Source of the DNA: Pontiellaceae bacterium
Lineage (GTDB): Bacteria; Verrucomicrobiota; Kiritimatiellia; Kiritimatiellales; Pontiellaceae
Length of the DNA stretch: 64,000 nt
Reading direction: 5' to 3'
Assembly (NCBI GenBank): GCA_016937945.1
Contig: JAFGVP010000062.1
Coordinates: forward strand, 1 to 64,000
Shown here piece by piece: positions 57,720 to 62,942 of this stretch. Position 1 is the stretch's first letter. Each line of letters begins with the position of its first letter. The notes under the pieces are model-generated. The model did no database searches. It was not told the DNA's origin and saw nothing but the letters and a program-made list of their open reading frames with translations. A program made the translations under genes and the position numbers.

Positions 57720-58670
57720 TCAGGAATTCCGCTTGGCCTGATAGGCTTCGATGACCTTTTGGACAAGCGGATGCCGTACCACATCGCGTTCCGTGAGCGA
57801 GATTATCTCCAAACCGTGAATGTTCTGCAGGATGGACTGGGCTTCTTTCAGTCCGGATGCACTGCGCCCCGGCAGGTCGATCTGCGTCAGGTCGCCGGTA
57901 ATGGCGCATTTTGAGTCGAAGCCAAGTCGGGTGAGAAACATCAACATTTGCGGCGGCGTCGTGTTCTGGGCTTCGTCAAGAATAACAAACGCATGGTTAA
58001 GTGTGCGTCCTCGCATGTAGGCCAGCGGCGCGACTTCAATAATGCCGCGTTCCAGATAACTCTCGATGGTTTCCGCCGGCAGCATGTCATAGAGGGCATC
58101 GTAGAGCGGACGGAGGTAAGGGGCCACCTTTTGCTGCATGTCGCCCGGCAGGAATCCCAGATTTTCGCCGGCCTCAATGGCTGGGCGGGTAAGGATGATG
58201 CGGCTGATCTCTTCCTTAATAAGAGAAGAGACGGCCATGGCCATCGCGAGATAGGTCTTGCCGGTTCCGGCCGGGCCGATCCCGAAGGTGATCGTGCTTT
58301 TCAGCATGGCATCGAGATAAATCTGTTGCCCAAGGGTTTTAGGAAACACGGACGGTTTTCTGGCCCCGACATCGATCCGTATGCTGGCCAGTTTCTCAAA
58401 CACATCGATTTCCCCCTGTTCGAACGCTTCGTAAGCATAGCTGACGGCCTGGTTGTCGATTCGGGTGCGATTTCGGGTTTTTCGCAAATCATTGATAAAT
58501 TTGATCAGTGGCACGGCTTGTTCATCCGGCCCCTGCAGGTTGATGGTCAGATCGCGCGCAAGCAACTCCAGTCCAAAGCGGCTGTGAATGCGGTCTGCAA
58601 GCTGTTCCAGCAAGGGCGTAATCTCTCTTGCTTCGCTGGCGTTATCAAAATGGATGGTATGTGAGTTCAT
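57720..58670 (-). CDS. phoH: PhoH family ATPase
   Basis: A 316-residue P-loop ATPase. KH-like N-terminal domain (about 1-100), Walker [15 protein letters not shown] near residue 131, [15 protein letters not shown], Walker [12 protein letters not shown] and sensor GDLTQIDLP. Role in RNA metabolism, linked to ybeY. First gene of the phoH-pgpH-ybeY operon. The intergenic region before its ATG is 750 bases and starts the non-coding section described next. Confidence 0.95.
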
Positions 58671-59024
58671 GAGTAAATGGATGCGGACAGGGATGAGGGC
58701 GTGGTTGTTCGCGACAATCTTCGGCCCTAAGAGGACGAGAGCTGACTTGGAGTCCGAATCTTCATAACCGGAAGTTAATGGGAATGTACGGAGCGCGTCA
58801 ACTGGTAATACGGGAGAAGAGTCTCTCAGATTTTTGGCAATATTTACTCAGAGAGCTGTCTTGGTATGTAATATGCTATGTATATGGAAAGTTTGAGCGA
58901 ACTCAGTCTGTCAGATAGAACGATCGCACGTACGCAACTGGAGACGCGTGTATATATAAAGATACAGACAAACTGATCGGAAAAACTTTTTACGCAGCGT
59001 GTTCGCGGCGGGCGTGTATCCGAA
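58671..59024. other. Long intergenic region upstream of phoH, no gene seen
   Basis: About 350 bases with no convincing coding frame. It is AT-rich around 58830-58990, with several TATA-like stretches (for example TATATATAAA near 58953), so it probably holds promoters for phoH (minus) and for the RNA candidate (plus). I could not place a -35/-10 pair with confidence. Confidence 0.5.
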
Positions 59025-59193
59025 ATCCACCCCGGTGGATGCGGAGCTAAGATTACCCCGGCGGCAGCCGGTTCGGTGAACAGCATAGTTTTTAGCATTG
59101 GCTAGGGATGAATCGACAGGGAATGTCGCGGTCAGCGGTCCCTTGCTGAATACCCCTTCTTCCTTCTAGCCAATGCACTTATCTTTCCAGTAA
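59025..59193 (+). ncRNA. Candidate structured non-coding RNA upstream of PFOR
   Basis: A series of self-complementary segments without a plausible coding frame: hairpin ATCCAC/GTGGAT (59025-59040), hairpin CCGGC/GCCGG (59058-59071), and a long-range perfect 11-bp pairing GCATTGGCTAG (59095-59105) with CTAGCCAATGC (59166-59176). The latter encloses two hairpins, CGACA/TGTCG (59114-59128) and CAGC/GCTG (59133-59148), a three-way-junction layout. A terminator follows immediately on the plus strand. I do not recognise it as tmRNA, RNase P RNA, SRP RNA or a known riboswitch. It could be a free RNA or a leader element of PFOR. Confidence 0.55.
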
Positions 59194-59216
59194 GCCCCGC
59201 ATCGGGGGTTTTTTTA
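59194..59216 (+). terminator. First terminator after the RNA candidate
   Basis: CCCCG (59195-59199) pairs with CGGGG (59203-59207), followed by seven T. On the opposite strand there is no T-run, so it acts on plus-strand transcription. Confidence 0.8.
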
Positions 59217-59222
59217 TCAAAA

Positions 59223-59257
59223 ATGCCTATTGGGACTCGATTTCAATAGGCGTTTTT
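59223..59257. terminator. Second, bidirectional terminator
   Basis: GCCTATTG (59225-59232) and CAATAGGC (59244-59251) form a perfect 8-bp stem, with T-runs on both strands, 9 bases after the first terminator. Confidence 0.8.

Positions 59258-59417: not shown

Positions 59418-62942
<3,525 letters not shown>

Follow-up and report, generated by a model that had tools for sequence, protein, structure and literature searches.

A conserved structured RNA overlapping the 3' end of a PEGA-lipoprotein gene in Pontiella that appears to outlive its reading frame

Small RNAs (sRNAs) cut from the 3' ends of mRNAs are well known; their transition to stand-alone genes is seldom visible. Among Gram-positive sRNAs, the C-rich RsaE and RoxS expose a run of C residues suited to G-rich ribosome-binding sites. 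CpxQ, MicL, DapZ and other sRNAs from mRNA 3' ends use the terminator of a protein-coding gene, and the reviewed examples come largely from model bacteria, with many of them linked to Hfq (reviewed in PMC9438474). In Campylobacter jejuni, an mRNA that depends on RpoN gives rise to the sRNA FlmE (CJnc230) from its 3' region, downstream of flgE (PMC11187230). In the Staphylococcus aureus icaR mRNA, a C-rich motif of the 3'UTR is complementary to the Shine-Dalgarno sequence of that same mRNA (PMC3868564). Our literature search, which had partial coverage, returned neither a bacterial sRNA derived from a pseudogene nor a 3'-end sRNA that repeatedly outlives its open reading frame (ORF), and also no RNA work in Pontiella or Kiritimatiellota.

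Here, we describe an RNA element from a 64,000-nt stretch of DNA of a Pontiellaceae bacterium (in the following, the window). Our preferred reading, to which we assign a probability of roughly 0.6, is that of a Pontiella small regulatory RNA which normally sits at the 3' end of a PEGA-lipoprotein mRNA transcribed with sigma-54 and which would stand alone in the window. The whole element spans positions 58861 (sigma-54-type promoter) to 59211 (terminator), and the examined interval is flanked by a PhoH-like gene (- strand) and the gene for pyruvate:ferredoxin oxidoreductase (PFOR, + strand). All features are listed in Table 1.

With regard to the systems above, the element resembles FlmE in its location in the 3' region of an RpoN-type mRNA and in a single-stranded stretch of anti-Shine-Dalgarno type (PMC11187230). 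In contrast to FlmE, the predicted Pontiella RNA extends over the final codons and the stop codon of its host, which encodes a PEGA lipoprotein. To our knowledge, there is no sequence relationship between the two RNAs. As in icaR (PMC3868564), a C-rich 3' motif is complementary to the Shine-Dalgarno sequence of the same mRNA, here in 11 of the 17 intact genes with a weak or absent match in the other six, but in Pontiella this motif is the invariant bulge of a conserved hairpin and is kept where the ORF is gone. CpxQ, MicL and DapZ are alike in sharing the terminator of a protein-coding gene and unlike in that Hfq (PF17209) was not found in the eight genomes searched (G000-G005, G029 and G030). 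The resemblance to RsaE and RoxS concerns the exposed C-run, i.e., that feature and not sequence or structural homology. Two features set the RNA apart from the class of 3'-end sRNAs: it reaches into the final codons and the stop codon, and it appears to have survived repeatedly without the ORF.

Table 1. Coordinates of the RNA element and its surroundings (positions within the window).
Feature	Positions	Strand	Remarks
PhoH-like gene	57720..58670	-	divergent neighbour, on the promoter side of the RNA element
Sigma-54-type (-24/-12) promoter TTGGTATGTAATATGC	58861..58876	+	conserved GG-N10-GC; start predicted at ~58888
3' remnant of eroded PEGA-lipoprotein ORF, ~codons 392-427	58990..59091	+	tblastn to intact relatives; 58% identity, ~11 gap positions
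Conserved RNA hairpin P1-P4	59095..59176	+	covariance model E 4.6e-25, fold z -3.2, covariation, synonymous-site constraint
One-sided bulge AUACCCC, 7 nt, candidate seed	59150..59156	+	identical in 22/22 copies
Intrinsic terminator, GCCCC..GGGGG then T-run, ends the RNA	59192..59211	+	position kept in most relatives, stem sequence varied
Second hairpin, flanked by A/T-runs, two-way terminator-like	59220..59257	.	in PFOR-linked genomes; outside the RNA
PFOR gene	59418..62942	+	TIGR02176, 1706 bits; neighbour, not the RNA's partner

The hairpin contains the perfect 11-bp stem that an earlier note on this DNA had pointed out, i.e., GCATTGGCTAG (59095-59105) pairs with CTAGCCAATGC (59166-59176), and includes the former stop codon TAG (59167-59169). 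The P1 stem carries a 2x2 mismatch in six copies. The fold is better than that of shuffled sequences in the window (z -3.2) and more clearly so in the nine relatives that were folded (-4.7 to -7.9), and the AUACCCC bulge is unpaired in the consensus fold as well as in single-sequence folds. Both terminator structures described in the earlier note were recovered, and the second one sits between an A-run and a T-run, in line with its described action on both strands; it probably terminates transcription in both directions and thereby insulates PFOR. In total, the region shows 6 terminator-like sites versus 2.3 expected by chance. Varied copies of the second hairpin (CCTATTGG..CAATAGG) with G.U changes are found at loci L022, L025-L029 and L033. 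The earlier note did not recognise the RNA class. With Rfam 15, no matches were obtained in the window at gathering cut-offs, and permissive thresholds gave chance-level matches only in the region. Two statements of the earlier note need correction. The local hairpins before ~59090 lie within decayed coding sequence and are unconserved among relatives, and the supposed 750-base region without genes harbours the remnant of a PEGA-lipoprotein gene, as revealed by tblastn to intact relatives.

A blastn search with positions 59067-59217 found the element in 20 of 27 further Pontiella genomes, and no genome beyond the genus gave a match. Using a covariance model of the hairpin, we obtained a single copy per genome in 22/28 Pontiella (Kiritimatiellota) genomes, and in 13/14 when considering those of high quality; many of the genomes compared are metagenome-assembled. 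The type strain P. sulfatireligans F21 is among the carriers of the element. Searched with the same model, 288 class genomes yielded no match beyond Pontiella. An intact ORF of ~442-449 residues, which has a lipobox as well as PEGA repeats (PF08308, E 7.7e-35), ends in the hairpin in 17 genomes. There, the hairpin overlaps the final ~25 codons of the lipoprotein gene together with its stop codon and is followed by a terminator at the mRNA's 3' end, as in an sRNA derived from an mRNA 3' end. Throughout the related genomes, the hairpin is always placed 3' of the PEGA-lipoprotein gene or its remnant, and wherever a contig includes PhoH, the intact lipoprotein gene lies between PhoH and the hairpin. 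Four cases of a hairpin without an intact gene were observed, and none of an intact gene without the hairpin within the genus. The copy of genome G025 is situated at a contig edge and has a stop inside; directly before what is left of its lipoprotein gene (L086, 1-110), an inverted repeat ATTTTATCCTCCTGCTT..AAGCAGGAGGGATAAAAT is visible that is possibly an inserted element.

The four copies without an intact gene, i.e., the window and loci L033, L038 and L041, have a deleted or decayed lipoprotein ORF of which the last 21-58 codons are left. When comparing the window with the intact genes, identity is 58% over the 96 nt before the hairpin, with gaps at ~11 positions, and 84% over the 86 nt of the hairpin itself, with essentially no gaps. 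The respective values among the intact genes are 74% and 88%. The hairpins of L041 and L038 are more changed and their folds are still strong (z -4.75 for L041); L041 has a compensated pair in P3, and the alignment of L038 shows matching changes in both stem arms. Deletion borders differ among the decayed copies, and the three of them that have PhoH do not group in the PhoH tree. The deeper branches of this tree are poorly resolved, which makes it uncertain how often the ORF was lost independently; two losses seem likely as a minimum, and four are probable.

The upstream signal has been retained as well. The strict pattern TTGG[TAC]A[CT]G-N5-TGC has one match in the 64-kb window, namely TTGGTATGTAATATGC, and TGG-N10-GC is present upstream of 17/17 intact genes and 4/4 decayed copies. 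The distance between promoter element and hairpin is 19 nt in L041, 67 nt in L038, 99 nt in L033 and ~220 nt in the window, such that the predicted start of L041 is found ~8 nt before the hairpin base. Two RpoN (sigma-54) genes are encoded in the genome of the window (G000:C95:21441-22817 and G000:C143:42895-44289), and together with the -24/-12 motif they would place the transcript in the sigma-54-dependent class, as judged by motif. On the - strand, a conserved block with TTGACG-like and TTAACT motifs (~58771-58806, also seen in relatives) precedes the PhoH-like gene and looks like that gene's own divergent promoter.

Under our preferred reading, the RNA would normally ride on the 3' end of the lipoprotein mRNA and finish at the mRNA's own terminator. 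As the ORF has decayed in the window, the sigma-54-type promoter would now yield a transcript of ~320 nt, the conserved part of which is the 3' hairpin with the terminator. The independent small RNA, one of the two suggestions of the earlier note, fits this reading. The hairpin would present the invariant AUACCCC bulge, for which G-rich ribosome-binding sites are the most likely pairing partners, with no help from Hfq. In most of the intact genomes, a matching site would be the lipoprotein's own Shine-Dalgarno sequence AAGGGGUAU. This sequence and its near variants pair with the bulge at <= -12 kcal/mol in 11/17 intact genes, given a background mean of -5.8 kcal/mol, and the match is weak or absent in 6/17. 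Since the bulge is invariant despite these weak cases, it may do something else, e.g., bind a protein.

A search of all 28 genomes for start sites of the form AAGGGGTAT-N3-9-ATG resulted in 80 matches compared to 45 for controls, i.e., a modest excess. Among the strict matches, the lipoprotein is the most recurrent gene, and we claim no trans target because only two other gene pairs repeat. These observations support self-control of the lipoprotein where its ORF exists, as in icaR. Such control cannot be the role in the window, where the ORF is gone, and the retention of the hairpin after ORF loss points to a role in trans. Transcription, processing, pairing in trans and regulated targets are what we infer from comparative data.

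Self-control could also be all there is. The element would then be a purely cis-acting 3' part of the lipoprotein mRNA, which pairs with the Shine-Dalgarno sequence of this mRNA or makes the transcript more stable, and the ORF-less copies would be relics on their way out. While the 11/17 matching Shine-Dalgarno sequences and the S. aureus precedent (PMC3868564) are in accordance with this, relics would hardly be expected to keep the promoter motif in all four ORF-less copies, nor a strong fold and a compensated P3 pair in the much-changed L041. It also sits badly with the window, in which the ORF remnant has drifted down to the identity given above and the hairpin remained essentially free of indels. 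We thus consider a purely cis-acting element unlikely.

Several comparisons indicate selection at the level of the RNA. Within the 17 intact genes, synonymous codon identity is 0.785 in the last 26 codons versus 0.439 before, and other 26-codon windows of the lipoprotein gene have a mean of 0.432 (sd 0.039) with a maximum of 0.538. Given that the sister genus uses differing codons here, the conservation of the 3' end goes beyond the protein's need. For covariation, the test named in the earlier note, we wrote the hairpin as 32 pairs. In this model, 92.6% of the cells pair compared to 29-48% in slid controls, and double-sided compensatory changes are observed for seven base pairs (0/500 shuffles). 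For related sequences, counts from shuffles exaggerate the significance, but neither the slid controls nor the synonymous test depends on these shuffles. Furthermore, 69 G.U cells versus 18 A.C cells, 13 of which belong to one pair, favour an RNA of the + strand. At the level of sequence evidence, the comparisons show a real, conserved structured RNA on the + strand that overlaps a gene and survives the loss of the ORF.

The same data bear on an element acting at the DNA level, e.g., an attachment or recombination site at the gene's 3' end with dyad symmetry by chance. A single copy at one position and deletion borders nearby would suit such a site. Still, G.U pairs are tolerated far more than A.C pairs, the stem shows compensatory changes and a terminator follows immediately 3' of the hairpin; viral contigs, scanned by pattern, and phage records, searched by blastn, gave no match either. 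A DNA-level site is therefore very improbable.

In the sister genus, represented by one genome (G028), an orthologous gene is found beside PhoH. Its protein ends with ..GDPLLNTPTSF encoded by different codons, its ribosome-binding site differs (AGGAGAGG), and neither a hairpin match nor the sigma-54 motif was found in this genome. The C-terminal motif DPLLNTPxSF is common to the 17 intact PEGA genes and the G028 locus (L158) despite the different codons. Most simply, the RNA would have arisen within the Pontiella lineage over a pre-existing coding tail, although with one outgroup genome a loss is possible instead. The conserved element might also reflect selection on a peptide, be it just the C-terminal tail of the lipoprotein or a short ORF that overlaps (MNRRGMSRSATPC-like), and the common tail speaks for this. 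It is very improbable, however: the sister genus encodes the tail differently while synonymous sites are frozen in Pontiella, and the decayed copies have the tail out of frame or left as an orphan. The short overlapping ORF was discarded, since the alignment shows it to be broken in L033 and L041.

Downstream of the hairpin, we find PFOR in this genome and several relatives. Other genomes have a lysyl-tRNA-synthetase-like gene in this place, and one has an unrelated gene on the opposite strand. Since the upstream gene is constant and the downstream gene varies, the element belongs to the lipoprotein gene and not to PFOR. The terminator-controlled PFOR leader or riboswitch first proposed in the earlier note, for which the position upstream of PFOR speaks, is thus contradicted by the gene order of relatives and practically untenable: the association with PFOR is not constant, part of the genus having other genes in this place, the element tracks the lipoprotein gene, and in PFOR-linked genomes the RNA stops at its own terminator, with a separate stretch then preceding PFOR.

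Concerning the origin of the small RNA, we lean slightly towards an RNA gene that was born atop the 3'-terminal codons of a pre-existing protein gene and that has outlived the protein in several lineages. It would have become the conserved function of the locus, with internal deletions bringing hairpin and sigma-54 promoter together. A ribosome completing the protein would have to run through the final codons and the stop codon, which are part of the hairpin, and would unfold it, and therefore translation and RNA folding should compete. One locus offers the series, i.e., the tail without the RNA in the sister genus, the overlap of RNA and protein, and promoter, hairpin and terminator without the protein. 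If true, Kiritimatiellota would have a conserved regulatory RNA, and this in bacteria in which no Hfq was detected.
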